Of a DNA stretch of 64,000 nucleotides, positions 18,449-64,000 are shown piece by piece (position 1 is the stretch's first letter; every line of letters begins with the position of its first letter). The position numbers were made by a program, and so were the translations under genes. This DNA comes from Galdieria sulphuraria (Eukaryota > Rhodophyta > Bangiophyceae > Galdieriales > Galdieriaceae), in NCBI RefSeq assembly GCF_000341285.1, contig NW_005178474.1, positions 245,570-309,569 of the forward strand, written 5' to 3'. The notes below the pieces were generated by a model that was given only the letters and a program-made list of their open reading frames with translations, did not search any database and was not told the origin of the DNA.

Positions 18449-21039
18449 CTATCCGAGAGGGGAAGCACTTTTCAAGATTAGGACACAATCTTCAAAGTTT
18501 CCTCTTTTAGCATCATCTAGTGGAGTAGAACCCCACCGATCTACTTTGTTTGTATTGGCTCCGTACTTGAGCAAAAGACGAACAACTTCAACATGTCCTT
18601 CTGAAGCTGCAACGTGGAGGGGAGTACGTCGATCATAATCAGAATAATTGACTGGAGCACCAGCTTCCAATAACAATGCAACTCTTTCCACATCTCCTCC
18701 AAATACAGCATCCATCAACTCCAAACAAATGACGGAAGTTGCAACAGTCTGTTGCTTGGCCCAAATCTCTTTCTTCAGATTGAAGACATTGTTAAATAAC
18801 TCCACAACCTTATCGTGCTTATTAGAAACCGCATCATCTAAAGGACTCCGTTGCCAACGATCTGAAACAAATGCATTGGCACCATTTTTCAATAACAATC
18901 GAACCATATCAATATGACCCTCTGAAGCTGCAATGTGCAGTGGAGTACGTTGGTCATAATCAGCAAAACTGATATCTTGCGGATACATTGCTAAATGTTG
19001 TTCCACTGTCGAAGTATCGTTTTTGGCTACTGCATTCATTAGAGTCATACATCGCTGCAACTGAAGAACTTCTTCGCTTCGATTATGGAAACCAAATTGA
19101 CTTGCATCTTTCTGATTGATAATAGAAAAATTGCTTTCATCTTGAGAAGAGATTTCTGCTTGAAATTGTTCCAACTCCAATAAAATGTCCTCAAATGCTG
19201 GTCGCTTTTCAGGTTCCGTATTCCAACCTCTCTGAATCAACTTGGCAATACTTCGGGGAACAAGCAATTGCGCATCAGGAATAGAGTCTAGATTCTCTGG
19301 AGACTCACAAAACTCTTCTCCTTGAACAACAAGTGGAGGCCGCTTTCCTTCTGATACCTGAAACATCATCTGAATGGGCTTCAGACCACTGAATGGCTGG
19401 CGACCAGTGAATATTTCCCACAGTAAAATACTGAAAGAATAAACATCTGAATAGGAACGATAAGTTTCACCGAACATAACTTCAGGAGCCATAGTATATG
19501 GAGTTCCAATAGAATTCTAAAAGAGTTAAGCATCTTTATGAATAGCTTGAAACAAAAATACCTTGCTTGATTTCTTCCTTGTGGATTGGGAACGATTATC
19601 TGCCAAAATACTAAGACCAAAGTCACAAATGACGACATGATTGACGTGTTTATCGATAAGAACATTGCTGGATTTCAGGTCACGATGAAGTACAATAGGA
19701 ATAGAAGAATGTAAATAATGCATACCACGAGCAACACCTAATGCAACATGAGTAGCCTATTTGAAATCAATAAAAGTGAGAAAATATTCTAAAACAACCC
19801 ACTTGGGCCAACGAAAAAGGTTTTGCATATAATCCATGTAAGTAGTCATATACGCTTCCACCATTAAAAAGTTCAGAAACTATACAAAGTGGTTTCTCGG
19901 GATCTACACAAGCCCCCATATATAACAACACATTTGGGTGGCGCAGTTGGCTCAAAGTTTCTACCTCAGTAAGAAAATTCTTCATTCTCAATTCATTTGC
20001 ATTCGTATCCGCTTCATCATATTCAACAGAGCGGAAAACTTTTATAGCAACGGGCATATGCAACCATTGACCTGCCCAAACTTCTGCAAAGCTCCCATTG
20101 CCGATTTTGCAGACAAAGGTTAGACTCTCATAATCTATGGCAAAAGGAGACGAGAAATTATCTCTCTTCGTTCTTCTGATAGAAGGTTTTGTTCCTCTGC
20201 TCTTATCTTGGGAAGATAATTCCCTATTTGTCCAGTTAGTAGAAGCACTTGTTGACATTCTCTCTAATTCCACTGCCAGTAAATCTCCTTCTTTTGTCTC
20301 TCTTAAAGTTCCGTTGATAGGACCGACCATTTCTTCCAAGTACTTCAGAAATGAAATGAGAAAAGCCGAGCTTTCCGATAGTTCCTGGAAGTTTTCAAAA
20401 GAAACTCCTTGTTCCTTCGAGTTGTCTGAATCGGGTTTCTGTGGAAGACTTGCATGCAATATGTCCGATACTAAATCTGCTTTGTTATTTATGGAGTATC
20501 CTCGGGCCATAATATACTTGTGAATAAATTGTTCAAGTTCTTCCAAGTCAGAGAGCTTGAGCACACCATCAACATCTTCGTCAAACATGTAAAACAGATA
20601 ACGAACTCTTTCACTTGTACTAACATGACAAAAAAGAGAATAGCCTGATATAAACCTTTGCAAGGAAATGCTTCCAACGTTACTCACATCCAACTAAACC
20701 AATTAAGACAACTGCAAAAAACTTCTGAATGCTGCTTACCAATTCAAAAAAACTCTCGGCATCCTTTTTATCGTGTTCAGTAGCGTCTAAAACTACTTGG
20801 AGAAAGGTTTCCTTTGAAATTCTATCGTTCTCAACTTGCAACAACTCAAGTTTATCGCGAATGTTTCGTAGTTCTAAGAGGTCAACTTCAACAGGTTCCT
20901 TAACTGCACCAGAGTAGTTATTTTCTAAACTTCCCGCCAGTTCATCTTTGCCCTCAGTTGCGTCTACCACTTCTTCTTTTTGGTTGCTAAAGATTCCAAA
21001 ACTAAGAACCGATCTTGCTCGATTCATATCTGACACCAT
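18449..21039 (-). CDS. EF-hand / TKL-type protein kinase / ankyrin-repeat protein
   Basis: Four exons of whole codons: 20740-21039, 19803-20693, 19562-19756 and 18449-19516; 817 residues from the ATG at 21039. An upstream in-frame TTG codon at 21069 is not a likely start. An EF-hand-like loop near residue 135 reads FDEDVDGVLKLSDLEE. The kinase domain spans about 295-580: GNGSFAEV glycine loop, VAIK lysine, HRDLKSSNVLI catalytic loop, CDFG metal-binding motif, and GTPYTMAPEV activation segment. These are TKL/Raf-like Ser/Thr features, and all catalytic residues are present. Four ankyrin repeats follow (DQRTPLHIAASEGHIDMVRL and a near-copy), ending near residue 815. The order EF-hand, kinase, ankyrin suggests a calcium-responsive signalling kinase; substrates unknown. 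Confidence 0.9.
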
Positions 21040-40207: not shown

Positions 40208-42328
40208 CTAAATATTTTTGGAAAGAGATAAAACTATTTCTTGTAGGGTTGAAATGCCAATATTTCTCGAATGTGGATCATCCACAGACTTGAAAGCGTT
40301 CCTTAAATTCGATAAAATGTCTTTGCCAATAAAGTTTTCTACATCAGCTTCAGAAAGAATAACCAATTCACAGTTGTGAGGAATCAACAAATCTCCAACA
40401 CCATCGCCAAAAGAATAACAACGACTAGAATGATTCAAGTCCTCAGATACGTTGGTCGCTAACTGAGTACTCATAATAATCAACATACAATGCCATGTAG
40501 GATGACTAGTCAATGCTTGATCATGAACTGGTTTTAAAAACTTGTGAGCTTCTTCCAAAATTTCATTCCATCGAATACCATTACGACTCCATCTGCCTTT
40601 ACAAGCAATACCCACAATCATCAAATTCTTCTCATTCGTTCTTCCATGCAACTTGAATAATATATCTGGACTATGAAAAGTTGAATGAAATGGAATATAT
40701 ATCTTTTCAAATTCTAACATTTCTTCCACTATCCTTTCCCATTCATCATTGCTTCCAAATGTCATTCTCTCCATTCCTGATACAGCTCTGGTATAATGTA
40801 TAGATTTCATATAATAAGCAGCAGATTCGGAAGAAAATTGTAAATTCATCTCATTCCAAACACGAGACAATTGACCAAGAGTAGAAAACATTGAGCTGTT
40901 TGTAGGACGCCGAGAAAAATGTAAATAAAACAGTGTAGCAATAAGACCTTCCAAAATTCGACATTTCGACTCATAAAAGAATTCAACAGATTGAGACTTG
41001 AGAGTTTGTAAAAGTAACCATTCTAAACGATCATCCTTTAAGCCTTGGTCAATATATTCAATCAGTAACTTGGGAATCAACACTTCATAGCGTTCGTTGC
41101 GGTCTGGTTCTATAACCAATCGACGATAGAGACACATATCTGTAACTAGATCAAACAAAAACACATCAGAATTTGAGCTCATTTGCACAGTTTCATCAAA
41201 ATCAAATCGAATACGATACAAAGATAATAACGTAAGCATTCTTAACAAGCGCTTACGCTGCTCACTGAGACTTATCAGACGAGGTAAGAATGGCGCAACA
41301 CAATAATTTGTTACTAAAAAACCATTCATTATGATCAAGAAGGTTTCCTTAGATAATAAGAAATTGTTGTTGGATGACTTATACAGCAAAAGGTAACTGA
41401 TTGCTCGAACAAGTAAACCAGGAACACCACCAGTCAATTCCAACAACAATTCTGCAAGTTCACTAATTGAGAAGTCTTTGTGACAAAGAATTTCTGAAAC
41501 CTTTGGGCTCCCAGGGAATAAAAAGGAAGAACTTTTCTCCAAATGTTCCACGATACTATGTTTCTCAAGCGGCGAAAGAGGAATAAACACTAACTGAACC
41601 CTTGAGACTGAAGCTACGTAATTATATATATTTAAGCCTTCACTTTTCCCAACAACAATAAAAAACAAGTCGGGTTCTTTGCACAATTGACTAATGATAC
41701 CGAAAAAGTCATTGTAAGGTCGAACTCTTCCGTCATGGGTTCTCTTGAAATGAAATTCGTCGAGACTTTCGTCTAGGACACCAACTTCATCAAATGCTAT
41801 CAGAAGATATTGATCAGAAGGAATCCTTAGTATATCTCGTAAGAGTGGAACTAGGTTGGAGGGTTCCATATCCACCATTTCGAAGGCTTCTTACTTTCGA
41901 AAAATTTCCGCGCCAACTTGAGAGCAGGCAGCCTTTATTAACAAATAGTAGACTGCCCACTTCAGGTTTCGAAAAAACTCTATGGGGACTGTGGGCTCCA
42001 ACCGCCTTAAATCCGCATAAAGCAACGAAGCCCTTTTTAATTTCTCCAGGAAACCTCTTCGGTTGGCCTTCTCAGACTCATAAACGTAATCGAGACCTAT
42101 CAGTGCACTTTCACCCATATTATTCACCAGTTCCAAGTAACTTTGTACGAATTTCGTCTTTCCACTTCCGAAGAGGTGAGGACCAAAGGGTATGACTGGT
42201 TTGAAATGGCGATCAAGTTTACGGAGAGTGTATAGCTGAAATAACTGCAGTGTTACTACACGAACATCATTTTCTCGGTGTACTACAACCATGTCATATA
42301 CGGTTTCTGGTTCAAGCTCACTAGACAT
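40208..42328 (-). pseudogene. archaeal-type P-loop ATPase, copy 1, interrupted by an in-frame stop
   Basis: One reading frame runs from the ATG at 42328 to 40208 and is broken only by a TAA at 41891-41893; conceptual length is about 706 residues. The N-terminus has the Walker A motif PHLFGSGKTKFVQSYLELV. After the stop comes Walker B-like YLLIAFDEVGVLDESLDEF, then GGVPGLLVRAISYLL, typical of archaeal ATPase (ATPase_2) and STAND-like NTPases. Near the C-terminus SPDILFKLHG...LMIVGIACKGRW has the spacing of a PD-(D/E)XK core with the acidic residue replaced. It ends at LSEADVENFIGKDILSNLRN and has no SAM-like tail. A GTAAGA donor-like sequence overlaps the stop, but no acceptor restores the frame. 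It could be a pseudogene or a sequence error. Confidence 0.75.
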
Positions 42329-42479: not shown

Positions 42480-42910
42480 AAGAAAGAGTGCTCCTTGAGC
42501 CTTTTATTTGTATGACAAGTTAACAGAGTTGCTCCGCGTTCAAATTGAAAAGTGACCATCTCGCACTTTCAAGTTGACCTTACAAAGCATCCGAATTGGA
42601 CTGATCACTGCACACAACATGAGAACAAATCAAAACTAATTGCAATCGAACTGAGATTTTCTTTGCAAAGCTAATTTCGGTCAAACTCAACTTTGTTGAA
42701 AGGCTTAAGCGTCGCTAGGGAGTTGACAGAACTTCCTTACAACGCTATCTTTCTCCCGTCGCAATATTACTATGGTATCAAGATAAATTCTATCTATACC
42801 AGTTATTATACCAATAGCTTTTTAAATCTCCTTTAGTGGAATATTTTCTTCAATAAAACTCACTAAACATAAAAGACTCCATATCTCCTGTGAAAGCATT
42901 TGCTCAAAAT
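42480..42910. repeat. duplicated noncoding block, left part
   Basis: This block resembles 57420-57880 in the same orientation. The clearest shared word is GTCGCTAGGGAGTTGA (16 bases) at 42711-42726 and 57704-57719. It is preceded by TCAAACTCAACT and followed by GTGGAATATTTTCTT in both. GCTCCTTGAGC marks the left edge in both. It forms the 3' flank of the intact ATPase gene. Confidence 0.75.
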
Positions 42911-43031: not shown

Positions 43032-45536
43032 TCATCGTTCGTTAGCGAGATATGACCTTATAGAAGATCTTATCTTCAACCTCAACGCAGGTTTATCTAT
43101 ACCCAAGTCCCGTAAAATTTCTTTGGTCACCGCTGGAAGCTCGTCCATATCAATATCTTCCACTTTCGGAAGACAATAAGCAACATCTTCTTCAGAAAGA
43201 CCACAATATTCTCTTAGGAAAGTATTCCAATCAAATGACGAAGACAAAGAACTCGATGCTGCAACCCTTTGTTCGCCTCGTGTATTTCCTTCTTCCACTT
43301 GCATAGCACTTTGAAAACCTTCCATTTGCATCCTATTCTCCTCATTGGTTCTCGGTCTTATATTTCGAGCTACTCTTAAAGTAACATTGAATGGCTTAGC
43401 TTCCAAAGGCGAAACATATTCATCGGACATCGACTCAAAGACAGTTTTACACCATACTGAAAAGTCTTTTCTGAACTCTTCTCGGCTTGCTTTCCCAATT
43501 TTCCTCAAAATATCGAAATTTTCTCTTCCCAAAAATCGTTCAAGGTTCCTTTGAGAAACAACTACCAATTGCAGACATGATCGACGACTTTCATTCAAAG
43601 TTGACCCTGCAGAATGTTCAGTAACCAAATAACTTGCATCCTCAACAATATTCTGTTCTTCACTAGAGAAAACTACAGATCGATCATATCTAGTACAAAC
43701 TACCACAAACTGAAAACAAAGTTGAACAGATGAAGGAGATCCGTCATTCAAAACGGAAATAACTTCTTGGAAAAATTGTTCTGCTTCCTTCTCAATATCT
43801 CTCTTCGAAAATTCAGTTTTGTGATAAAATGTAAATGAAAATGCAACAACATAACGTGTCTGTCCATTATGGAATACAACATATGCATCAGGACCACTCG
43901 AATCGCCATCTTTTGGAACAAAAATACCACAACGTTGTAAATATTTTCCATAATGGTCAGAAAATGAATCAGAGACATTTCTCAAGATGGGTATATCATT
44001 AGATTTTGTTGATTCCATAGAATAAGAAACATTGTCCTGTTCAATAAAAGAACCCTGGAAAATTCCTGGAATAGCAGAATGCACAATAGGCGAGGAATTA
44101 GAATGAAGAAAAGCTAATAAGCGAAAGCGAAAGATCTTCATAAATACAAATTCAAAGAAGACTCCCTTTGCTGTTGAAGTGTCGGGAATATAACTAAACG
44201 GAGATAAACGAAAAAGTTCAGTAGCCTCACGGAAAAAGCTATAGTTGCTATGAGCTCTCAATATAAATTCACAACAACCAATCTTGAATTTAGTGCCCAA
44301 ATCAATCCCGTCAGTTTCACAAATTTCAGAATAAAACCCAAAAGTTGCAACCAAGTCCATCAAATAAGTTCTCGTTCCACATAGAGTAATTGCAAATCCG
44401 ATTGGGAAAACTGTTCCGAGTTGATAATTCAAAAAGACAAATTCATATCGAAGAAGGGTTGAGGAATCTAGTATCTCTGGAATAATAAACGTTAACGAAT
44501 GTAGTAGTAAAGACCGGAAGACACCATCTAACAAAAGTTCCATATTGTCGTTGTTGATAGCAGGTTGCGATAAGTTTGCAACTTTCCGTACTAGGGCAAG
44601 TAAAGTATTCCTTAAAATCAACGGGATACCCCCTGTCTTCTTTTTCAACAATTCTAAAAATCGATGTCGTATACCATCTGAGGGTAATAACCAGTCCTTC
44701 AAGGACTTTCCATCATAAGTTGCCAGCTCAATATATTCGTTAATATCACGGAGGTTAAAGGGATTCAACCGCAACATACGAAGACTCACACTACTGGAGC
44801 GAGCATCAGACAAGGGGGCCGAGATTTCAGCAGTCCGACCTGCCAAATAGACAATTAACTTCCCTGTAATCAAAAAACCACGTAAAATACGGAAGAAATT
44901 CCGGAAAGGTACATATTTTGGGTCAGACTCGACGAACTCTTTCGCGCCAAGTTCACTATAGTATGTGGTGAGGTAACTCAGGTGACTAAGTTCGTCTATC
45001 ATCAAAAATAAATATCGTTTCTGAAATTGTTCGAGAAGAAAATTAATAGCTCCTACAGTATCGAATTTCTTTACCGTCCTCTGAGCCATCTGAAGAGCGT
45101 CCGTATCTTTACCATTTTGTCGATAAGCGTTCAAAATAATATTATACATCAAAGCCTTTCGAAAACTTGGAAAAGGAGCATCAGAAAAGCTCTCTCTTAG
45201 TTCTAAGATAACTGACAAAGTTTGTTCCGCAAAGTGTTTCCAAGGCACCTTCAACGCACTCGGTTGGGGGTTATCGTTTGAACTGTGTAGTTGTTGAAAA
45301 GCCTGTGCATTGGAACACTCACGCTCTGCAAAAATATTCAAATAGGCCAAAAAGTTTTGGCCTACAAATGTTTTGCCGGCTCCATAAATATGCGGCGCAA
45401 AACAGCAAGCCGGGCGATTGAACGAAGGCCCACCGTACGCCTTCTCCGAGAACTGAAAAAGAAACGTCTGTATAATTGTCCTGACGTCCTCTTCCCTGTC
45501 AATTTGTGGTTCTTTTAAGCGGTATATTGTTTGCAT
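43032..45536 (-). CDS. archaeal-type P-loop ATPase, copy 2, intact, with SAM-like C-terminus
   Basis: Single exon, 834 residues from the ATG at 45536; no intron, unlike most genes here. Walker A is CFAPHIYGAGKTFVGQNFL (near 47-65), Walker B is RYLFLMIDELSHLSYLTTYY (near 180), and a sensor-like helix follows GGIPLILRNTLLALV. A middle region FKIGCCEFILRAHSNYSFF precedes GPDAYVVFHNGQTRYVVAFS, which has the strand order of a PD-(D/E)XK-like fold but lacks the ExK residues. The last 65 residues (WNTFLREYCGLSEEDVAYC ... LGIDKPALRLKIRSSI) look like a SAM domain. Galdieria sulphuraria is reported to carry a greatly expanded family of archaeal-derived ATPases; this is presumably a member. Crinkler/RHS-type NTPase-nuclease proteins are the alternative. 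Confidence 0.85.
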   Translation of the reverse strand: MQTIYRLKEPQIDREEDVRTIIQTFLFQFSEKAYGGPSFNRPACCFAPHIYGAGKTFVGQNFLAYLNIFAERECSNAQAFQQLHSSNDNPQPSALKVPWKHFAEQTLSVILELRESFSDAPFPSFRKALMYNIILNAYRQNGKDTDALQMAQRTVKKFDTVGAINFLLEQFQKRYLFLMIDELSHLSYLTTYYSELGAKEFVESDPKYVPFRNFFRILRGFLITGKLIVYLAGRTAEISAPLSDARSSSVSLRMLRLNPFNLRDINEYIELATYDGKSLKDWLLPSDGIRHRFLELLKKKTGGIPLILRNTLLALVRKVANLSQPAINNDNMELLLDGVFRSLLLHSLTFIIPEILDSSTLLRYEFVFLNYQLGTVFPIGFAITLCGTRTYLMDLVATFGFYSEICETDGIDLGTKFKIGCCEFILRAHSNYSFFREATELFRLSPFSYIPDTSTAKGVFFEFVFMKIFRFRLLAFLHSNSSPIVHSAIPGIFQGSFIEQDNVSYSMESTKSNDIPILRNVSDSFSDHYGKYLQRCGIFVPKDGDSSGPDAYVVFHNGQTRYVVAFSFTFYHKTEFSKRDIEKEAEQFFQEVISVLNDGSPSSVQLCFQFVVVCTRYDRSVVFSSEEQNIVEDASYLVTEHSAGSTLNESRRSCLQLVVVSQRNLERFLGRENFDILRKIGKASREEFRKDFSVWCKTVFESMSDEYVSPLEAKPFNVTLRVARNIRPRTNEENRMQMEGFQSAMQVEEGNTRGEQRVAASSSLSSSFDWNTFLREYCGLSEEDVAYCLPKVEDIDMDELPAVTKEILRDLGIDKPALRLKIRSSIRSYLANER

Positions 45537-45799
45537 TATCCAAAGACTGATACAACTCGAAACTTTCAACAACGAATGACCTAAACACAAATTGTAAATT
45601 GGACAAATTGATAATGTTTTTCAAGAGTTTCCAGGGCGGCTATACAGTTACTTTGGATATCTTTAAGTTGGTTTATGACACTTTAGCCACTTCAAACCTA
45701 TCGAGGGATTAAAGTTGTAAAAATGAAATTTCGGAATTTAAACCTCTCTTTGAACATATTTCAAGCTTTGAATTGTTTCTATTGTAACAGTCCCACCTT

Positions 45800-46340
45800 T
45801 TCCTTTGAGACGTTGAGCTCCACTTGGCTTGTATTGTCTTTTTGGATTGTCCAATATTGAATACCTCTGTTACCTTTATATACTCCATTCAAGAAATATC
45901 GTTGTTTAAACTCTGGTATCCCATGGAAATTCGCTGTTTGCGTTTCGAGGAGATAACCAAGGCAATGGATTCCAAATAACTCAAGGTCGTGAACCTTTCA
46001 TCTCTCTCGTAAATCAGCAGGTTTTTATTGAATGTCGTTTTAGAATATTTTTCGTGCATATCTGCAGTCAGAATCTTGGTCCTTTAGGCTCTTGTCGATA
46101 TCAGCCCTTGGGTTCACATTTTTAAGATAGTTTGTAAGAACCTTAACTAGATTCTTAGTCGAATCCTATTCCTTTTATTTTTGGGCACTTTAGTTGTGTC
46201 CGTTTTCATTTAGGAAGATACTCTTTTTAAAGAGACGAATTATAGGTTTGTGATCAGATTTGGAACATAAAAGACATTTCTCAGAATAGCATGCAAAAGA
46301 AATCCAGGGACTATTTCTACCCATCTGTCATAGTGTGTCC
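45800..46340. repeat. duplicated noncoding block, right part (SAM synthetase upstream region)
   Basis: This block resembles 58130-58640. The best-kept segments are ACATTTCTCAGAATAGCAT near 46274-46292 versus GCATTTCTCAGGATAGCAT near 58601-58619, and CTTGGGTTCACATTTTTAAG versus TTTGGGTTGATATTTATAAG about 180 bases earlier. It lies between the start of ATPase copy 2 and the start of the SAM synthetase gene and so includes that gene's promoter. Confidence 0.65.
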
Positions 46341-46373: not shown

Positions 46374-47665
46374 ATGGGTTCAGTTGGTGATTCATCTACT
46401 TTCTTATTTACCTCAGAGTCAGTTAATGAAGGTCATCCGGATAAGATATGTGACCAAGTAAGTTTTTATGTATTCAGTTAGCAGACTTGTTTCATTACTC
46501 TTGTTTCACAAAGGTTTCCGATGCCGTCCTAGACGCTTGCCTTGAAAGGGACCCTCTCGCAAAGGTAGCTTGTGAGACAGCCACAAAGACTGGCATGGTT
46601 ATGGTTTTTGGTGAAATAACTGTAAAGGGTGCTACTATTGATTATGAGAAGGTTGTGAGAGATACCATAAAGGAGATTGGTTTCGATGATGAGAAGAAGG
46701 GCTTGGACTATAAGACTTGTCGAGTGTTGGTTGAGTTACATCAACAGTCACCAGATATTGCACAAGGAGTTCATGAGAACCGTGCAGCTGATGACGTTGC
46801 TGCTGGTGACCAAGGAATTATGTTTGGTTATGCCACGGATGAGTCTCCAGACTATATGCCGTTGACACATAGTTTTGCTACTCGTCTTGGGAAACGTCTG
46901 ACTGAAGTACGTAAGAAAGGCACTTGTCCTTGGGTTCGTCCAGATGGCAAGACCCAAGTTACTATGGAATATCGAAAGGAGAATGGTCATTTGGTGCCTT
47001 TAAGAGTTCATACTGTCGTCATATCTACGCAACACGATGATAACGTATCGAATGAGAAGATTCGTGCAGATTTGCTGGAAAAAGTTATCAAGGAAGTCAT
47101 TCCCAGTAAATATTTAGACGATAAGACTGTTTATCATTTGAACCCAAGCGGACGTTTTGTGATTGGAGGACCGGAAGGTGATGCAGGTTTGACAGGGCGA
47201 AAGATCATTATTGATACTTACGGTGGTTGGGGTGCTCATGGTGGTGGCGCTTTTTCTGGAAAAGATCCTACAAAGGTCGACCGCTCAGCCGCTTATGCTG
47301 CGAGATGGGTTGCCAAGTCTATTGTTGCTGCAGGACTTGCACGTCGTTGCTTGGTTCAGCTATCTTATTCTATTGGAATCGCCTCACCACTCTCCGTCTT
47401 TGTGGATACTTATGGAACGGGAACCAAGCCAGATCAAGAAATCTTGGAAATAGTCAAGAAGAACTTTGGTAAGTTTTGCGTTTTACTTTAAGATTGATCA
47501 TAACCATGTTTTGTACCATAAGATCTTCGTCCTGGTCGTATCATAAAAGATTTGAATTTGTTAAGGCCTATCTATAAGCAGACTGCAGCTTATGGCCACT
47601 TTGGCAGAGATCCCAAAGTAGAATCGACGTTTACGTGGGAAATACCTAAGAAACTGGAATTTTGA
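46374..47665 (+). CDS. MAT: S-adenosylmethionine synthetase
   Basis: Three exons (46374-46457, 46514-47468, 47523-47665) with introns of 56 and 54 bp give 393 residues, the usual family length. Motifs in order: [17 protein letters not shown] (methionine-binding region), [31 protein letters not shown] (the GAGDQG-type loop with Ala for Gly), [19 protein letters not shown], the phosphate-binding [20 protein letters not shown], and [11 protein letters not shown]. The enzyme forms S-adenosylmethionine from methionine and ATP in the cytosol. The ATG at 46374 is chosen because it directly precedes the conserved [11 protein letters not shown] start. It is a housekeeping island inside the ATPase-rich region, convergent with PPIL4 (about 140 bp between stops). 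Confidence 0.97.
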
Positions 47666-51679: not shown

Positions 51680-54182
51680 CTAAGAAAACTCTTCAGTAAT
51701 GCCACTAAGCAGTTTGGCTATTACGATGGGATCATTGATACCCATGCGAAGTAATGAATCTTCATTAAGTCTGGAAAGCGAAACTCTGCCAAACCTTGAA
51801 AGTTTCCTAAAACAATAGGCAACATCCTCTTCAGAAAGACCACAACGGTCTCTTAAGAAAGTATTCCAATCAAATGACGAAGACAAAGAACTCGATGCTG
51901 CAACCCTTTGTTCGCTTCGTGCATCTCCTCCTTCCACTTGCATAGCACTTTGAAGCTCTTCCACTTGCATCCTATTCTCCTCATTGGTTCTCGGTCTTAT
52001 ATTTCGAGCCACTCTTGAAATAACATTTGATTGCTCCAAAGACGAAACATATGCATTGGACATCGACTCAAAAACAGTTTCACACCATACTGAAAAGTTT
52101 TTAGAAAACTCTCCTCGGTTTGCTTTCCCAATTTTCCTCAACGTTTCGACATTATCTCGTCCCAAATACACTTCAAGGTTCCTTTGAGAAACAATTACCA
52201 ATTGCAGACATGATCGACTACTTTCATTCAAAGTTGATCCCGAAGAATGTTGAGTCACAAAACGACTTGCATCTTCAACAATATTATGTTCTTCGGTAGA
52301 GAAACCTACAGATCGATCATATCTAGTACATACTACCACAAACTGAAAACGAAGTTGAACAGATGAAAAAGATTCGTCATTCAAAACGGAAACAACTCCC
52401 TTAAAAAAATGTTCGGCTTCCTCCTCAATATTTGTTTTCGAAAATTCAGTTTTGTGATAAAATTTGAATGAAAATCCAACAACATAACGTGTTTGTCCAT
52501 TATGGAATACAACAAATGCATCAGGACCACTAGAATTGCCATCCTTTGGAACAAAAATACCACAACGTTGTAAATAATCCCTATAATGAACAGAAAATGA
52601 ACCAGAGACATTTCTCAAGATGGGTATATCATAAGATTTTGTTGATTCCATAGAATAAGAAACATTGTCCTGTTCAATAAAAGAACCCTGGAAAAATCCT
52701 GGAATAGCAGAATGTACAATAGGCGAGGAACTAGAATGAAGAAAAGCTAATAAGCGAAAACGAAAGATCTTCATAAATACAAATTCAAAGAAGACTCCTT
52801 TTGATGTTGAAGTGTCGGGAATATAACTAAACGGAGATAAAGGAAAAAGTTCAGTAGCCTCACGGAAAAATTTATAGTTGCTATGAGCTCGCAATATAAA
52901 TTCACAACAACCAATCTTGAATTCCTCGCCCAAAACTTCAGAGTAAAACCCAAAAGTTGCAACCAAATCCATCAAATAAGTTGTCGTTCCACATAGAGCA
53001 ATTGCAAAGTTGATTGGAAAAACTGTCCCGAGCTGATAATTGAAAAGAACAAATTGATATCGAAGAAGGGTTGCAGAATCTAATATCTCCGGAACAATAA
53101 ACGTTGTTGTCTTTCGTACTACAGAGTGAAAAATATCATCTAACACACTTTCCATATTGTCATCGTTGATAACAGGTTGCGACAAGTCTGCAGCTTTCTC
53201 TGCTAGGGCTACTAAAGTATTCTTTAAAATCAACGGAATACCTCCTGTCTTCTTTTTTAATAATTCTGCGAATCGATGTTGCAAGCCATCTGAGGGCAAT
53301 AACCAGTCCTTCAAGGTCTTTCCACTATAAATTGCCAGCTCAAGATATTCATTAATATCGTTGAGGTTAAAAGGATTCAATCGCAACATATCGAGGCTCA
53401 TGCTACTGGAGCGAGCATCAGACATACGGGCTGAGATTTGAGATGTCCTGCCTGCCAAATAGACGATTACCTTCCCTGTCATCAACAAATCACGTAAAAA
53501 GCGGAAAAAATTCCGGAAAGGTACATATTCTGCATCGGGCTCGATAAATTGTTTCATGGTAAGTTCACTATAGTATGTGGTGAGGTAACTCAGGTGGCTA
53601 AGTTCGTCTATCATCAAAAATAAATATTGTTTCTGAAACTGTTCGAGAAGACAATGAACAAATAAAAAAACACCAAAATGCTTCACCGCTCCGTCCGTGA
53701 AATCTAAAGAGCCTCGCGCAGCCATACCATTACACTCGGTCAGCAGCCAGAACAATATTATACATCAAAGCCTCTAGAAACCTTGGAAAAGGAGCACCAG
53801 AAAAACTCTCTCTCAGTTCTAAGACAACTGACAAAGTGTTTTCCGCAAAGTGTTTCCAAAAAAAGTTCTTCACCTTAACTCCTCCCAATGAGCTCGTGTT
53901 GCTTTCAGGGAAATGGCCAGGGCGTCCCTCCGTCTCCTTTTGCTCTTCTTCTTCGGCAAATTTGTTCAAAAACTCTAAAAAGTGTACACCGACAAAACTC
54001 TTCCCGGCTCCGAAGATATGCGGAGAAAAAGAAACAGCGGGACGTATGTCATTCAAGTTTCCCTCAGTTGGAGAAAACTGGTTCAAATAAGTTAGAATAA
54101 TAATGTAAACATCTTCTTTTCTATCTATTAACGGTACTTTTGTCATTCCAGGCAAACTTATGCGTATCTCTTGACTAGCCAT
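51680..54182 (-). pseudogene. archaeal-type P-loop ATPase, copy 3, frameshifted between Walker A and Walker B
   Basis: Two overlapping frames cover a copy-2-like protein. The N-terminal part starts at the ATG at 54182, carries Walker A FSPHIFGAGKSFVGVHFLEF and stops near 53730 at LAADRV. The rest is in another frame from about 53750 down to 51680, with Walker B QYLFLMIDELSHLSYLTTYY. The body is very similar to copy 2, including FKIGCCEFILRAHSNYKFF, GPDAFVVFHNGQTRYVVGFS and WNTFLRDRCGLSEEDVAYC. The segment linking the two motifs (about 53650-53750) is unlike copy 2, and no GT-AG pair restores phase. The last 40 residues also differ from copy 2, though they keep a SAM-like LLRMGINDPIVIAKLLSGI. 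Probably a recently disabled copy; a base error is the alternative. Confidence 0.75.
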
Positions 54183-54279: not shown

Positions 54280-57200
54280 ACACTTGGAGGAGGACAAAGG
54301 AGTTGGAAGGAGTGTATGTTTTATTGTTCGAGCGATTGCTTTATTTGGTGATTGGTAAAAATGATCTCTTTGACACTTCTAGACTCACAATGACAATAGA
54401 GAGAAAGCAGGAATATTTTCTTGCTTGTCATAACTAGAAACTTTCTTTTACAATAGACAAGAAATAGATTTCTATGAATTTTTGTGGTGAATTAGATTGA
54501 TGGGTACTCTTTCTATGGCTTGTATACCGTAAGAGAGTTTTTCTACTATCTTCCACACTATCTTACACGCAAACTCCTATATACAAGTCTAATAAGATAC
54601 AAGCTTTTTGTAAGTTACAGACGAAATACAGTGGGAAACACAGAATTGCAATGAATGGGAAGTCTGTTAGTTTGTAACCGTTCGTAGCAGTCTATAAATA
54701 CAAAAATATCTAAATGAATTTGGAGAAGAGTATAATGAAGATTGTCATACTGACTTATCATTAAATACAAGCCATTATTGATATAATAGCTACACAAGTT
54801 GTCTATCCTTTGTTCGACTTTTACCAAGTTGTGAATATGTCTTATATAAAAACATCAATAAAGGCTTCAAATATAGTAACTATAACCGTTCATTTTCCAC
54901 ATATCGATGCTGAAAAAAGAGCAAAAGATTGAGCCAAAAAATTATTTAACTAAAGAAGAAACCTTGCATACTTGAGTCAAGGTCGAGTAGTGTACCAACT
55001 TGAAAGCTTCAGCAATTCTCCAACTGAAAGCCACTCCATATTGAAGAACTTTTACCCAACATGACTCTTGACTGAAAGACGTTGTAGTTCCTAAGTTATC
55101 GGTCAAGTGATTGTTGTGGAATGACAATACTTCAAGATTGGATATGGTTTCCTTTGACTAATTAGAAACAATTCTGTTCCACTCTCAAAGTTGTCCTTTG
55201 CAATGCAATATAAATAGAACTCCTATGTAAATAGTAATTGTCTGAAATAGAAAGTTCTTATCTCAGTGTCCAAATGGGTAGAGTCACTTAAGATGTCTCT
55301 TGTACTATCGATAATTGAACAAAGTTTTTCATCTTTGCAACCGGGTTACTTTCCCTATCTAAGAGTCGGTGAGTTTTCAGTCTAATTCACTAAAACAGAG
55401 TTTGGATATATAGTGTCGTGAGTACTTTTGAGATAGAGTTTGAATTGCAAACCAAAATACTCTTTTTAGTATTTCCTCTTACCTTTGCTATATTTTCTCT
55501 TGGATCCAACAAGTTTCATATTTGTAGAAGCCATTCATATGAATTCCAAGGCTAGAAATGCAGTTTGAAAAAAACACATAAAAACGAAAGGAATCTAAAC
55601 TTTTATCGAATTTCAACAAGCTAAAACTCTTTTTAAGACCGCAGTGCAGGTTCTCAAGTTAGAGGAAGCCTCAAGTTTTTGCTGCAACTCCCTTCGTTTG
55701 TTGTCTAAAACCGAGGAAAACTCTCTTCTATTCAGTTAACAAAAGACAGGAAGGACAGTCCAAGTGAAATCTACAAACAACCTTTTTCTGTCTCAGTCTT
55801 TGAAAATTATAGTAAAAGGAGTTACTAGTCTTCTTTCAACAGACTAGAAAGACAACATAGCAGACACTTGAAGAATGTTTTGAGATATTCTTTCGGTAAC
55901 CACTTTACTAAGTATTTGGACAAGAAAGGATATTTTTCATTCTAGTTGTATTCAACATGTATGTAAGTATAGTCTATTCATTTTGAATCATTGCTACAAC
56001 TCTGCAATATCGCAAAATTGACACCAAAAATAGCCTTCAAATGAAAAACTTTTAGTTTTGAAACATGTTCAAAGGTATCTCCGAAATATTTGAAAGATTG
56101 CACTAGTGTATTAATCGAATCATTCTCCTGCACACAAGTGCATATCTCAATATCCAATTTCTGTAAGAGTCAACAACTCCTGTTTTCTCCTCTGAAAATA
56201 CTTGCAGACAATAGTGACATTTGATACTGTGGATTCTGCTAAGAGAAAACTTATTTTCAAAAAAGTTCAATTCAGTCCAACTGAGACAATCCTATCGATT
56301 CTCTTCTCGTTTTTCATCATAGCATTTAAATCATAGTTGAATTGTCTCTTCCAAGTAGTCGACTATATAGTTGAGATGTTTTTGAAGGTAAACATGACTG
56401 TTTAGGTTTAAAGGCTTTCACTGCCTTCTCTTGTACCATCAACTTTGAACTTTGTAAAAACCACAAATTGTAAACATAGATAAGAAAGCAAACTATATAA
56501 AACACAAAGCTGCCTTAGGGAATGGATAACTCCAAGAGAACTCTTATGTCTTCCAGTACGAAGAAAACAAAACTTTTAAAAGCTCTGCAAATTCAAGGAA
56601 AGATTTGTTCAGCTCCACTCGTCTCCTACTCTTTTTCCACTCTCTCAAACATCAGCTCCTTGAATAAGTGAGTCATAATACAAAAGTCATTCGCGTTAGA
56701 CACTAGGCAGAAGACTCTCGCGAAATAGAAACAGATGGATACACTAGTACAGGCTTCTTTTAAGATATTTGTAACAAGAATCAAAGACAACTCAAAGTTT
56801 TGTATAAACAAACTGTCTATAAATACAAGAAACGTTCATTTCCAATAGGGACAAGTCAAACATAAAGAAAGAAGAAAAGATATAGTCTTATCCAAATTGC
56901 TCTAAAAAGAAGGAAAATGCCTCTTTCAACTTTGCATTATTCAGCAGAATAAAATTGTGCAGACTCAAATTGATATTGTGATTATCCAAACCGGTAAAGG
57001 TCTTGTTCTCTTAAATATACTAGATCAATTTCGTCTCCTAGTGAAAAGAAAAGAATATAAACGTAGAAATAATGGAAAAATAAGAATCTTTCATCTCCTC
57101 TTCGCAAAGTAACAAAGAAAGGTGAATCTTGAAATACATGTGCAAGGAGAAGCAAAAGCATCACCACTTTTACCGTTGTTATACTAGTTAAAAGCTCTCA

Positions 57201-57410
57201 AAAAGTTCTTTACGTGGAGAATGAACCAATAGCCTTGAAACGTTTGAGGTTCGATCCTACTTATCGTAAGTAGTTTATGTACGAATTTGTGTATAGACAA
57301 AAGTATTCCCAACCTTTGGTCAGTTTTTTACTATTGTCCTGTCCTCTGTATACTTTCCAATTCTAGAGTTGAATATACGATTTATTCTTCTTTATAACTC
57401 GTAATCGAAC
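54280..57410. other. gene-poor AT-rich spacer
   Basis: About 3.1 kb upstream of ATPase copy 3. Only short frames of hydrophobic or polar low-information composition are seen. A sequence GGTTCGATCC at about 57248 resembles a tRNA B box but has no matching A box or cloverleaf. Confidence 0.55.
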
Positions 57411-57419
57411 AAAGATTGC

Positions 57420-58640
57420 TCCTTGAGCGTAATTTGCATAGAAGGGAAGATTATAGCTCTCACAACGCAAGCCAAACAGAGTTAATGTCATTGAAATTAG
57501 AAAATGACCATTTTACACCTTTAAGGAGTTTTCCTTAATCTTGAGTGACCAACAAAGAAAGCTTCTCAGATCGAGAACGAGTCAAAAACTAGTTGTAGCA
57601 AAAACCGTTCTTGATTTGTTATCAAAATAGGCTCACAAGTAGTTTGAAATTTACCTTGCAGAGACAAGATTGATCAAACTCAACTCTGTTAAAAGGCTAC
57701 AGTGTCGCTAGGGAGTTGAGAGGACCTTTGTTACGACACTGTTCTTCTCGTTTCACAAAAATACTGAGATGTGAGATTGATGGTATCTAGCACACTTATT
57801 GTTCCAGAAACTTTTTACATATCTCCAAGTGGAATATTTTCTTTCATAAAACTGTCACTTAAAATAATATATCTCCAGTGAAAGGAGACAATACAAAGCG
57901 ATCCTTCTCATAACAATCCAATCAGAAATTCAACACAACGGTTTGATTGTTGGATGGAAAGGAAGTTTCAGTGAGTATTGTCAAGGCTGTGGACCCGATT
58001 CAAGTTTGCTATTGAAACTTCTCAGACTTTAATTGCTAAAACAAATTCGTCGTTCGTTTTAGTTGGACAAGTGAATTTCTATTATCTACCTTTCTCTTTT
58101 AAGCTCTGCAAATGTTTCTTTTAGAACAATCCATCGAGTCCTGTGCTCTGAGTTCAAAGTAGACTGTAGTTTCTTTTTAGTAAGTACAAATTTTATTATC
58201 TCTTTGGAGTTTATATACTTTATGCAACACTTGTTGTTATTTCACTTCTGGTCTTGTATGGAAATTTGAGATTAGCATTGTCGAGAAGAGAACAAAGACA
58301 AAGGAATTCAAGCTGTCGTTGAGTGTTGGTACATTAATCAACTAGTTGTCTCACAAGTTTGTTTATTTTTATCGATAATTGTTCCAGAACATTTTTGCGT
58401 ATGTATTAGCAGTTGAAAGTCCTGTAGTCTGTTGTTGAGAAACAGTCTTTGGGTTGATATTTATAAGATATTCTGCAAGAAAACAGTTAGACTCAGTTGA
58501 GTGTTTTGTTCAGTACACATAATTATATTCCGTATGGTAGTTTTTTGTCTTCTATATGACTCTTTTCAAGATGGAAAACTCGGTCTGTAACTCTGCAACA
58601 GGCATTTCTCAGGATAGCATAGGAAAGTCTCGAGTCCATC
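57420..58640. repeat. diverged duplicate of both flanks of ATPase copy 2, without the ATPase
   Basis: The left part (about 57420-57880) matches 42480-42910 and the right part (about 58130-58640) matches 45800-46340, in the same order and orientation. In the first locus the two parts are 2.9 kb apart and enclose the ATPase; here they are about 0.25 kb apart. The intervening bases contain TCGTCGTTCGTTT, similar to TCATCGTTCGTTA at the very end of the ATPase coding region (43031-43043). No SAM synthetase exon follows here. Confidence 0.6.
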
Positions 58641-61600
58641 ATTGCATATTTTCAATGATTGTTTGTATTGTCGAGCGTTTAGATCAATTCTCTATTGATT
58701 CGAATATATATTTTGAAATATTACGGATAGAGGGCCTTAGATAACGAAAGCTGAATAAACTTGTATTTTGAAAGCAAGGAAAAAGTTTTCAGTTCAAAAT
58801 ATACTCACCTTGTTGAGAACCATGAAATAAAGCAAGCAAAAGGACACTGTTGAAAATCTTGGTTGTGTTCACCTGGGTAAAAAGTTGTGACAATGGCGAT
58901 TGTAGTTACTCGTCCGTTTTTGAAAGACGCCTTTGTTTTTATGAATTACTGGTTTTACCGAGGGTGAAATATGTCTAAAAGGATATTTAAGTCGTAAGAG
59001 TGATAAAGTTGGAACTAGTATTGATGGTGTTTCTGAAAGGCATCTATTGCAAATTGTCTTTGGTCCATAGTACAGTTGGAAAGGAGGGTAACATTAGTAG
59101 GAAGGTATGAATGGGAAACAAGGCGACTTGTGTATAACAGTATTTGCCTTGTCAAGAGTGCTGGCTGATCTGTTTTTCATTTCAACACACTGAAAGTCAT
59201 TCTGTTGAAAGTGGTGGTAGTTGTAGCTGTCAAAAAGTGAAAAGGAGACTTCACCTTTTGTGCAAACAGGTTGCATTTGAATAGTATACAAAGTAGCTCT
59301 GAAAGAAACTCACGAAGGATTGGTTGAACTTCTACAATGTTACACAAGTGCACACATTGATATCATCGTGTCCGACTAGAGTTTTTGGTTTGACTCTGAA
59401 GATAAAGTCCAACTCTTGATAGATAATTCCTAGAAAGCATACGCAGACGAACAAAGTAGTTTGCACATTGGCACAAACCATAAAGCATTTTTCTATTATC
59501 GCAGCAAAATCAAACCATTCGCCACTACTTGAAATTCAACCACATGAACAACAACAAATATGAGCTCAAGGCTGGTAAAGTATGGCATAGTCATCAAGTC
59601 TACAAAGAGAATGATTCCTGCTTGTATCTTTTACTGTTTTCTTCGTCGTTGGCATGAGTGGAAAAGTGTCATTGTTTTATTTACTTGGAATTGTAAACAG
59701 ACAACAACAACAAGACAAAGTTATAGTGTTTGGTTATAGTGGTACATGGAATATTAATAATAGTTTTTGTCATAAAAGTACGAATTTGACCTATTTTTTA
59801 CCATACAGGAAAATTGCATTGTTGAGTTTACAAAATAAAAGGGCATCATTTGCACACTTACAGACTATTCTTGTACCTTGCTGTCGGTATAACTAAATAC
59901 GGTTCTGATTTTGAACAACAAATAGGGTATCGAGTTGCTTTAATGGTCGATTTTCGGATTTTTCTCCTACATGTTTGAGACTAATCTTTACCTTTTGATT
60001 CTTGAAACGAACTTATTTGTTATCTCATGATAGTATGATGAAGCAACTAGTCGTCATTTCTTTTCGGAAAACGTCGACGTACAACTTTTCAGATGCTTTT
60101 TTCATTGGAAATCCTGATCACAAAGAATCTCTTTGTCCCGTGATAGTTGCGTTGCATTTGTAGGGATGGGTAACTCCAAGTGATCAATTCAAGACAATTT
60201 CGTCAGTTGAATCAAGTAATCTTTGACAAGTGAACTTGCAGTATCATGAAAGTGTACAACATACTGTCTTATGTGATCTTGAATCTACTACTGATCTATG
60301 TGGATATATTGTATTGTTCTTATGTCGAAACTACACCTTTTGACTATTTATGCTTCAGAACATTTCCATCTTACTTCTTCGACCCTAAGACCAGCTTGAT
60401 ATGGAGTGGTCATCTAGTCGATAAGGATAAGATAATATTTCTATCTCGTTTTTTCTCTTCTTTATCGGTTTAATTGTGGAATGGTGAAGATCTTGTTTTT
60501 TAGAGTTGTAATATGTTGTAAAAACAGTTGAATGCTCATTGTACAAGAAAAGGGATGAAGATGATAGAAAGTAGTATCCAAAGACTGCGGGATGATGTAA
60601 ATTCAGAGAAGCAACAAGATTGCAGTCAAAGTTCTATATAAACGATCTATTGGGAATAGAAATTGAACTTGTCTTAGTACGAAATACTGGTTGTTTTCCC
60701 TTATTCATATGAATTTTCATAAAAGACAAAAATTTACGTTTTACATAGTATATACTTTTCATTGAAAGAATATAGAAAGGTCAGTTGAAAGAACTTCAAG
60801 GAAAAGAAGTAAATGAATGCTTCCCTGGCTTCACGGGGTTAAAATATCAGATCTATGATGTACAGATTTTGAGGTTGATGCTCACAAAAAGCAGAATCAA
60901 TTCTGAGATTTTTACACAAGTAGCAGCAAAACACAAAATAGTTGTCCTGTTCTAATTTCAGGATCTTTTTGTATATCCTTTGATGCTTGAACCTTTTCGC
61001 AGCCTTTGGTGGTTTTCATCCACCTCTTAACCTTGGACTATTACCACAATTGATTCAAGTGATAAATGACAATGTATTTATGCCGTACCAATACCTTGTT
61101 CTATGTATGTGTTGAATTTGAATCTTATTTCAAAGTGATATCCGAAACAATTCTGGTTACAGCTGTGTTGAACGAAGTAATAATAACTTGCTTTAGAGTA
61201 CCCTGAATCTTATCACTTCTAGTTAAATCTCAACCGGATATGGCACAACTATTCTAGTAGATACGTAACAAAAGGTCTATTTGATTTCTTCCTTCTCAAC
61301 GTATCTAGAAACTGGTTACTGCTTTATATTACTTGAATTGTATACTGAATTCAATGATTTACTGTTCAATGGAAAGAAAGTAAGATATTTCTTGATACTG
61401 CTCATCTAAGATAACATTCTATATACGAGTTGGTCATTTGTTGATAACTAGTCGAATATCTCATCAAGACGAAATTCTGTTTCATAAGTAAAAATGTCCT
61501 CTATGGTTCGTTCAACTTTTGAATTCTTAGAAATTATACTGAATTTATCGAACGAATTAGTCCGTATCTCGAGAAAAACGATTTGCCATATAGTATTAAT

Positions 61601-64000
61601 AGTAGTATTATTACTAAGGATACAGAAGACTAGGGAGATGAAGACTTGGTTTGAGAAAAACTTGGTAGTGTTTGAGTGTCCAATAATTCCTCCGCGATAT
61701 TGAATACGTTTTCGTTGATCATTTCATCCTAGATAGCTTCGCGAATCGACTCAAGCGATGAATTGTAATGTATCTTTGCAGTGCTACGAATCTGTTACTA
61801 CCAGTTTATATATTTTGATATGAACTAGTTGTTTGTTCAGATATAAATACGTCAAACTGTACTTGATTCAATTTCATAACTACTTGTTTTGAAGTACCTT
61901 CAGTTATACAATTTCGTTCCAACCAAGCATTACTGGGTACACTATAGTCACTTCGCAGACAAGAGTCAGATTTAAATCTTTTTTCAAGTGTTCGCATCTA
62001 AATGCGTTGCTTGTTAGAAACGTTCAAAGTTTGCTATTGAAATATAGCCCTAGCAATGAATGGAATCAATGTGTTAGACAAGATAACGGCACAGCTCGAT
62101 GCACAAAAAGTTGAATCAACGTTTCCATTCAAAATCAATTGTTTGATAGCAAGACTAATATACGTTGTTATTTTTTAGGGGTATCTACGAGAGAGTTGGT
62201 TGAATTGTCATTATGTGGACATTGGGTTATCCAATAGAGTTTCTGTTAGATAGTGTTTGTATAAGATGGATTCTTTAAGGTAGAATTGATACTTTATTGA
62301 ATACTAGTTGTCAAGTTGAGAAAGACTTTGTACCTTTGCACTTGAAATATCGCTGTTGTATGTACAGAGTCTTTATATCCGAAGCAGTGTTTTATGTGGT
62401 CTTTAGGCTCCCTGTATGCTTGATTCAGCGTCGAATTGTCCAAGATTATCTCGATTTGCCTAAAGTATTCTAGTCCTTACTCTAAAAGGATGATTTACAG
62501 ACTATTATTTGGATTACTTAAAATCAAGTCGAAGATCAATTCATGTGAGAATCACCGGGTGAGAATCCGAATTGCAACAAAGCATCAATTTTCCCTTGAT
62601 ATTTGTATGCTGCGTGCACTACTGGGAAAATGGTCGACCATAATTCAATTTAGGTACATTTGTGGATTGACTTTCATATTGAATGACAATGTGTTTCTAG
62701 AATATTGAGAACATGTTACTATGGATGAGCATAAATCAATCAGCATCCAACATTCTTGTATCTGTACGGAATTCAATTGAACTTTGTTTAAATCCATTGA
62801 TTCCTATCACTATTGGTGGAGCACATTCTCGTTTTACTGCCTTGGCACCAAGCTCAACTTGCATCATAGAATCATTAATTTTTGATAATAAAGGTATTGT
62901 GCTAAAAGTCTATTGCTTCGTTCTATTGACTGGTCGGAGAGTAGTCATCATCTTGTTTATCTTATCTTTTCAAGAAAGTTGCAATTACTGAACACTAAAA
63001 ACTGAACTTTAATTGAAAAAAAGTATGACAGCAATAAACTATACTATTCATAGACCACAGAATCATTTGATTTAGAAGAACATTCAACTAGTTTGTAGAC
63101 GATTGGTCACAAACGAACCGCAAAAAGAAGCAATGTAACCTTGCTGATACAAGCTATTGAATCTCTTGTCATGTTTATATGTTGTGTAGTACAAGATGAA
63201 GAAAATGAATCCTTTCATTTCAACTTTTATACTACTCGTTGAACAAAAAAATACACCAATTTGCTTTGGAAGAAAATAGATGATGGAAGATATATAGTGA
63301 AAAAAGAAAGAAATGGCTTCCTAGTTCAATAGACTACAGACATAGTGTTATGAGCCAAAAGTCTTGACTTTGATTCTCATTAGAAACATCAACGATACTC
63401 TTGTCGTCATTAGTAGAAAAAGTATTCCCTAGTAGTATCTCATACTGGTAATAGTAGAGCGTTTATGGCATTTTGTTTTGTTTATCCATTCTACTGATAT
63501 GCATGACCTGTATTTGAACACCATAAGACAAAAAGTAGGCTGTTGAAACAATATGTTTAATGTTTGTGTATTTCATGGCATCCCTAATCGTTATAAATTG
63601 TCCAAAGCTTCAAAGACCTGATTACTTTAGGCATTTTTTATTTTTTTCTCACGAACTTTATTCTTCTTCTTCCCTTTTTTTATATCTAAAATGAATATCA
63701 TACAATCCTCACTGATAGAATACAATCAAATTTCTATTCGAAAAGGTAAAGTTTAGAATAAAGCAAGGCATATACAATCTTACTTGCAGAATCATTATTT
63801 GCATTTCTGTAGATATTATTCTCTATATAGCTGTAACTTTCTTTACTGGTTTGGAAAGTGTAGACAACAACATTTATAGGAAGAACAATATCAAGTTTAT
63901 GATTCAACTCGATCTCGACACTAGTATTCCATGAAGAAGGATATCACTCCTCATCATACTCGACGAATGGTTTCGAGTTCGACCTAATCATCTATCTTAT
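58641..64000. other. gene-poor AT-rich end of window
   Basis: About 5.3 kb with short ATG frames only, for example 59654-59896 (plus, 80 codons) and 62713-62991 (plus, 92 codons). None has a recognisable domain or a chain of spliceable exons. No telomere-type repeat, transposase, RNA gene or CRISPR-like array was seen. Confidence 0.5.
60246..60473 (+). CDS. possible small membrane or secreted protein, 75 residues
   Basis: An ATG frame ending in TAA. The first 25 residues (VYNILSYVILNLLLIYVDIL) look like a signal peptide or membrane anchor, followed by an aromatic-rich stretch with Cys (FDYLCFRTFPSYFFDPKT). Hydrophobic frames are common by chance in AT-rich DNA, so support is weak. Confidence 0.22.
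   Translation: MKVYNILSYVILNLLLIYVDILYCSYVETTPFDYLCFRTFPSYFFDPKTSLIWSGHLVDKDKIIFLSRFFSSLSV

Follow-up and report, generated by a model that had tools for sequence, protein, structure and literature searches.

A clustered family of STAND-like ATPases in Galdieria sulphuraria with a probable nuclease-like domain and a SAM-bearing branch whose two observed copies differ by a sharp intradomain junction

Excerpts of PMC6629376 attribute 211 'archaeal STAND ATPases' without hits outside the species to Galdieria sulphuraria 074W; unpublished resequencing quoted there places these genes next to every telomere, and the same excerpts doubt their transfer from archaea. The Galdieria ATPases are likewise described as highly duplicated in subtelomeres in excerpts of PMC9812998. 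Both the origin and the function of these proteins are disputed. The STAND class of NTPases is defined by a Walker A motif, a Walker B motif of the form hhhhDE and a GxP motif. Archaeal proteins of the ATPase_2 plus DUF234 type, such as MJ_RS08955 of M. jannaschii (L001:1934-3253), consist of an ATPase followed by a further C-terminal domain, which is nuclease-like. The paper that defines the Crinkler-RHS (CR) proteins is reportedly that of Zhang et al. (2016). Excerpts of PMC5289972 present CR proteins as a combination of NTPase, HTH and REase domains, and SAMD9 appears in excerpts of PMC5445408 as a vertebrate STAND-like NTPase with a polymerising SAM domain.

We analysed a stretch of 64,000 nucleotides of G. 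sulphuraria DNA, referred to as the window. On its minus strand lies the gene G1 (43032..45536), which runs from an ATG at 45536 to a stop codon at 43032 and encodes 834 residues with no internal stops. The P-loop and Walker B motif that an earlier note had read in this protein were both located (GAGKT at residues 52-56 and LMIDE at 178-182); they are followed by TGGIP at 301-305, PD at 549-550 and a SAM-like tail that begins at residue 768. Within the P-loop, PHIYGAGKT, a histidine takes the place of the classical first glycine. Judged by motifs only, GAGKT, LMIDE and TGGIP in G1 correspond to the three STAND elements, with equivalents in its two relatives in the window, G2 and G3, and the best reading of the sequence is that G1 is a STAND-like ATPase, whose P-loop ATPase region we place at residues 1-346 (44499..45536, minus strand) from the motif positions and from a profile alignment (hhalign) of residues 175-269 with archaeal ATPase_2.

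Like the 'archaeal STAND ATPases' in the excerpts of PMC6629376, the G1 family is STAND-like, has more than one copy and gave no confirmed outside relatives in the collections searched; we infer that it is probably the published family. The SAM tail and the differing SAM halves of the window genes, which we describe below, are not mentioned for the Galdieria STAND ATPases in those excerpts. Full-text searches of a literature that leaves out most subscription journals returned, to judge from titles, only papers on myosins and MADS-box genes for Galdieria with SAM domain or sterile alpha motif, and only one on white rust for Galdieria with crinkler; the excerpts of PMC7159879 do not mention Galdieria.

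The C-terminal landmarks from which the earlier note had proposed a SAM domain, W..FL...GL and LGIDKPALRLKI, are found in G1, and by profile match and predicted fold the tail (residues 768-834; 43035..43235, minus strand) is a SAM domain. In the profile check against PF00536 and PF07647, the last 76 residues taken alone scored 24.7 bits with SAM_1 (E 3e-5), over the curated Pfam cut-off of 23, and none of five randomised tails (four shuffles and one reversal) gave a SAM match at E<=1; two of the five weakly matched other families, with a best E of 0.017, which is the level of noise. An AlphaFold2 model of the full protein, built from a four-row alignment, has a mean pLDDT of 43 and falls below 50 at 603 of 834 residues. 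Within this model, residues 771-830 are predicted at pLDDT 82-90 to form five helices (770-777, 782-792, 797-802, 805-810 and 816-833), so that the refuting condition set by the earlier note, a C-terminus other than a five-helix SAM bundle, did not overturn the claim. When the full model was compared by Foldseek with the PDB, the best 50 of 381 matches included the SAM structures 2e8o, 1ow5 and 3bs5 at prob 0.95-0.97 and E 0.24-0.9, E-values that may be weak because the query is long and mostly unreliable; the top rank was taken by a wheat resistosome (E 0.017, prob 0.41).

A related tail, whose second half is unlike that of G1, closes G3 (51683..51874, minus strand); it matches SAM_2 at 17.0-17.1 bits (E 0.006-0.007), under the cut-off of 20.5. 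A SAM-like tail is absent from G2. That these tails are generic helical extensions which resemble SAM by chance would fit the sub-cut-off scores of the G3 tail and of full-length G1 (20.4 bits, cut-off 23), as well as the alignment of the later part of the profile alone (positions 27-62 of 64). We regard such a coincidence as extremely unlikely, since the isolated G1 tail is over the cut-off, SAM models are the sole families listed for both diverged tails, and the confident five-helix model, the Foldseek SAM matches and the randomised tails all speak against it.

The two relatives were found by tblastn of the G1 translation across the whole window, and all three genes lie on the minus strand with the same order of Walker A, Walker B and TGG[IV]P. 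The second SAM-bearing copy, G3 (51680..54182), is 75% identical to G1 over 680 residues (G1 147-826) and 54% identical over a further 136. G2 (40208..42328) is a distant, SAM-less paralog with 21% identity to G1 (24% over 323 residues in the tblastn alignment). Neither paralog, nor the junction inside the SAM domain discussed below, was part of the earlier note.

The frame of G3 is interrupted near 53735, and removal of a 55-nt GT-AG intron there would also mend it; that of G2 contains one in-frame TAA at 41891-41893, overlapping GTAAG. Across both strands of the window GTAAG occurs 102 times and TAA 2317 times, so that about 4% of TAA would lie in GTAAG by chance. Candidate GT-AG introns that keep the frame number four in G2, ten in G3 and, without need, nine in G1. 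Splicing of the 69-nt candidate would cost G2 a helix that precedes Walker B and that aligns with G1 in the read-through, so the TAA may or may not belong to an intron. With possible intron donors at both interruptions, the sequence decides neither for 'pseudogene' nor for 'intronless'. For G1 itself, which the earlier note had called intronless, the frame is open, yet the nine candidates (36-138 nt, three of them 54-63 nt, at about residues 130-200) preserve it equally well, and the absence of introns is thus not proven from the sequence.

With the frames of G2 and G3 interrupted, part of the cluster may be decaying, and one could suppose that the whole family is: open frames and residual domains would then be kept by gene conversion, with no present function. 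The interruption of two of three copies in the window and the loss of nuclease residues described below are in keeping with this, as is a dN/dS of 1.26 between G1 and G3 at residues 700-765, a value that is based on 4 synonymous and 17 other changes. Against it stand the intact 834 codons of G1, the overlap of both interruptions with possible intron donors, and an overall dN/dS of 0.53 (bootstrap 0.40-0.71; 591 codons of residues 166-765, 300 resamples), whose upper bound lies at 0.71. By this codon comparison the G1/G3 core is under purifying selection, and we consider decay of the family unlikely.

Several other features of the window were recorded. A plus-strand gene between G1 and G3, which we take to resemble S-adenosylmethionine synthetase, has, by reading only, two readable introns with GTAAGT donors (56 nt at 46458-46513 and 54 nt at 47469-47522). 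Neighbouring minus-strand ORFs at 18449-20693 look, by eye, like pieces of a single gene with EF-hand, protein kinase and ankyrin-repeat parts. Two segments without a long ORF, 57645-57884 and 58097-58311, resemble the DNA upstream of G2 (42652-42896, 72%) and of G1 (45759-45975, 67%); they may be the 5' flank of a fourth copy that has been lost, or else a repeat common to these places. From 54300 to 64000, about 10 kb contain no ORF longer than 92 aa at a G+C of 0.33-0.35, with DNA of long ORFs on the left; this is possibly the start of a subtelomeric zone. The algal telomere unit is AATGGGGGG. As it occurs 0 times in the window on either strand, a subtelomeric place of the cluster is not shown.

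The relation between G1 and G3 is not uniform along the genes. A tract of about 2.1 kb (43164..45243 and 51803-53859, minus strand), delimited by blastn, sliding identity and change-point analysis, is 86% identical in DNA and ends near residue 97 and inside the SAM domain. Over the first 97 residues the identity is 37-63% per 60 columns, and past residue 791 it is 38-43%, a level that carries on into the 3' flank; within the tract there is a dip to 63-65% at residues 134-171. From residue 700 on, the best single change-point falls at residue 789, with 90% identity before it (261 sites) and 43% after it (129 sites), and its log-likelihood gain of 48.3 compares with a maximum of 12.8 in 2000 permutations, none of which reached it. 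The codons past the junction agree between G1 and G3 in 42% of cases versus 26% when shuffled (0 of 2000 shuffles reach the observed value), which makes the tails look like SAM halves that diverged long ago and not like unrelated DNA. The sharp stop of the 86% tract inside the SAM domain therefore indicates that the two genes have similar cores but SAM halves that parted long since.

SAM domains bind each other through surfaces that lie within the segment differing between G1 and G3, and head-to-tail SAM polymers show a split into an acidic and a basic part. Across helices 2-4 the charge is -8 in G1 and +1 in G3, and in the last segment it is +5 in G1 and -2 in G3; as calculated from sequence, the split of G1 fits the head-to-tail pattern and that of G3 does not. 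Such a junction could result if two older genes, each already with a SAM domain, exchanged their core by conversion, or if a third copy donated a new SAM half. In the former case the fusion to SAM would predate the likeness that the cores now show.

We turn to the ancestry of the ATPase, which the earlier note had called archaeal in type. Its proposed check against ATPase_2 (PF01637) failed to place the proteins in that family: Pfam ATPase models gave no match at E<=10 to G1 or to either piece of G3 (G3a, G3b), and G1 has neither an ATPase nor a nuclease match above cut-off in Pfam. The sole match to ATPase_2 came from the read-through of G2 (13.2 bits, E 0.079, cut-off 33.2), and the two separate pieces of G2 had no Pfam match. 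As reference for a profile comparison we took the ATPase_2 plus DUF234 protein from the M. jannaschii plasmid with 17 unbroken relatives, and aligned the profiles with hhalign. The ATPase region of the paralogs scored 31.9 against the archaeal ATPase_2 profile, with 22.8 as the best of 60 column shuffles (0 of 60 reached the score), at a probability of just 21% and an E of 0.001 for one comparison; the alignment covers Walker B, the following GRT/GSS and the LNPFNLRDINEYI helix, with Walker A outside it. With G2 alone, 43 of 60 shuffles reached the score, the top shuffle at 31.8. Compared one by one with proteins of the M. jannaschii plasmid, the ATPase region showed no preference for ATPase_2, scoring 22.3 with ParA, 19.9 with a DEAD-box protein and 16.4-19.1 with three ATPase_2 proteins. 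MJ_RS08955 shares with the G1 family a profile alignment from Walker B to the helix region; it differs in that there is no Pfam-level membership, the DUF234 score is reached by shuffles and no SAM domain is listed in the archaeal protein. Archaeal descent of the ATPase is weakly supported by these sequence comparisons.

These data bear on the published idea of a heat-adaptation ATPase acquired from archaea, which is repeated in excerpts of PMC9812998. The weak ATPase_2 similarity of the G2 read-through and the profile similarity of the ATPase region agree with it. The excerpts of PMC6629376, however, report no hits outside the species and a temperature response of a patchy subset alone, and our profile searches of archaeal genomes, which had no positive control and say little, found no match in 300 and in 194 genomes at E<=0.01, nor in 4 at E<=1. 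We judge a heat-adaptation ATPase of archaeal origin to be highly improbable.

The middle of G1 (residues 456-690; 43467..44171, minus strand) is delimited as a restriction-endonuclease-like region by paralog alignment, a low-confidence AlphaFold2 model and Foldseek. It aligns with G3 (83%) and G2 (23%), and the PD is invariant in all three. A separate model of the region (pLDDT 41, pTM 0.42) predicts a long helix, strands before, at and after PD, then helix, strand, helix and strand, an order of elements that is that of the endonuclease-like core fold. This model was compared by Foldseek with the PDB and viral libraries. Among the best 50 of 788 PDB matches, FokI ranks first and seven, counted as whole chains, belong to enzymes that restrict or nick DNA (1fok_A, 2fok_A, 2fok_B, 5liz, 5lhc_A, 2ewf, 1bam), including FokI, BspD6I and BamHI; the best E is 0.023, none reaches 0.001, and many unrelated folds stand in the same list. 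An uncharacterised podovirus protein at the top of the viral library (7.1e-4, prob 0.98) was left uninterpreted, as the query model has a pLDDT of 41. The hhalign score of the region against archaeal DUF234, 15.7, was matched by 9 of 60 shuffles. The nuclease-like domain claimed for the middle of the protein is probable from its modelled topology and its structural neighbours, which agree at low confidence; the DUF234 profile score did not stand out from shuffles.

The statement that G1 lacks the ExK residues holds: the (D/E)xK place reads S-F-T in G1 (S567 and T569 at the E and K places), S-F-K in G3 and A-C-K in G2, so that the acidic residue is absent from all three (S, S, A) and the lysine is retained in G2 and G3 and is T in G1. 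In all three copies the next helix has glutamates 12-17 residues past the lysine position; counted from SFK in G3, E stands at +6, +13 to +15 and +17, and counted from ACK in G2, at +12, +15 and +16. Some restriction enzymes, such as Cfr10I/NgoMIV, use a glutamate moved to the next helix, and G2 and G3 therefore need not be dead. A catalytic glutamate moved in this way in G2 and G3 is no more than a possibility.

An NTPase, a helical stretch and a REase-like domain follow each other in the same order in CR proteins (excerpts of PMC5289972). The family may be a red-algal counterpart of Crinkler-RHS proteins, in which a P-loop NTPase, a helix-turn-helix and a restriction endonuclease would serve in conflicts with parasites of the genome or with other organisms. 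According to PMC7563717, RHS outnumbers every other gene family in Trypanosoma cruzi, and in excerpts of PMC6629376 the Galdieria ATPases, said to adjoin telomeres, are likened by the authors to VSG and CSEP genes. G1 nevertheless has no sequence match to CR proteins and no known header, and carries a C-terminal SAM domain instead; among the Pfam matches at E<=10, compared by Pfam names only, there is no RHS- or Crinkler-named family, no above-cut-off Pfam domain was found at the N terminus, and the lack of AATGGGGGG in the window gives no sign of a subtelomeric place. We regard a CR counterpart as possible, if on the doubtful side.

Searches for other relatives covered several collections. 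Viral contigs scanned with G1, G2 and G3b and prokaryote genome contigs scanned with G2 only held no confirmed relative, plasmids scanned with G1 held none, and phages scanned with G1 gave portal proteins only, at E>=2. G1 matched no PDB sequence, and a ribosomal protein found in the PDB with a profile (E 1) was taken as chance, as were sub-cut-off Pfam matches to LAGLIDADG_3, PPR, Cas9_PI, TIR_3 and similar families. With G1 and G3b, NCBIfam gave one PPR match (E 0.93) and PADLOC none. By description in the excerpts of PMC5445408, the SAMD9 family is like G1 in joining a STAND-like NTPase to a SAM domain; it is unlike G1 in that its SAM domain is N-terminal, its P-loop lysine is replaced, and AlbA, Sir2, TPR and OB domains are present.

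The SAM domain, the motifs, the paralog cluster and the sharp SAM junction are supported directly by the data. What stands of the larger claim is a cluster of STAND-like ATPases of one family, probably with a nuclease-like domain, that has a SAM-bearing branch; the two SAM-bearing copies seen differ by a sharp intradomain junction. The explanation that best joins these features, to which we give an even chance, is that of fast-evolving, clustered STAND-like ATPases with a degraded REase-like domain, which are assembled by SAM domains and recombine their SAM halves. Read from the N terminus, G1 would begin with a switch that binds ATP; a helical stretch would follow, then a restriction-endonuclease-like domain whose active site has degraded, and finally the SAM domain of this subfamily. 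ATP binding would open or close the core, and the SAM tail, for which a role in docking or oligomerisation is plausible, would join copies head to tail or to a partner and so gather domains that contact nucleic acid. The nuclease-like domain of G1 would bind and not cut; the lysine-keeping copies G2 and G3 might have retained cutting activity by drawing a glutamate from the helix that follows. Through recombination or conversion the copies would homogenise their cores and keep or import SAM halves that differ, so that neighbours would assemble with different partners. That similar cores with recombined, differently charged SAM halves amount to diversified SAM-assembled switches with changing assembly partners, a signalling or defence repertoire like that of NLRs or SAMD9 in a single-celled red alga, is a further step that we consider rather unlikely.

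If the window genes belong to the Galdieria ATPases, the SAM domain on some copies provides a testable handle, oligomerisation, and the SAM junction suggests that partner choice, beyond catalysis, is being diversified. The SAM-bearing ATPases would thereby offer a concrete alternative to the heat-adaptation idea.
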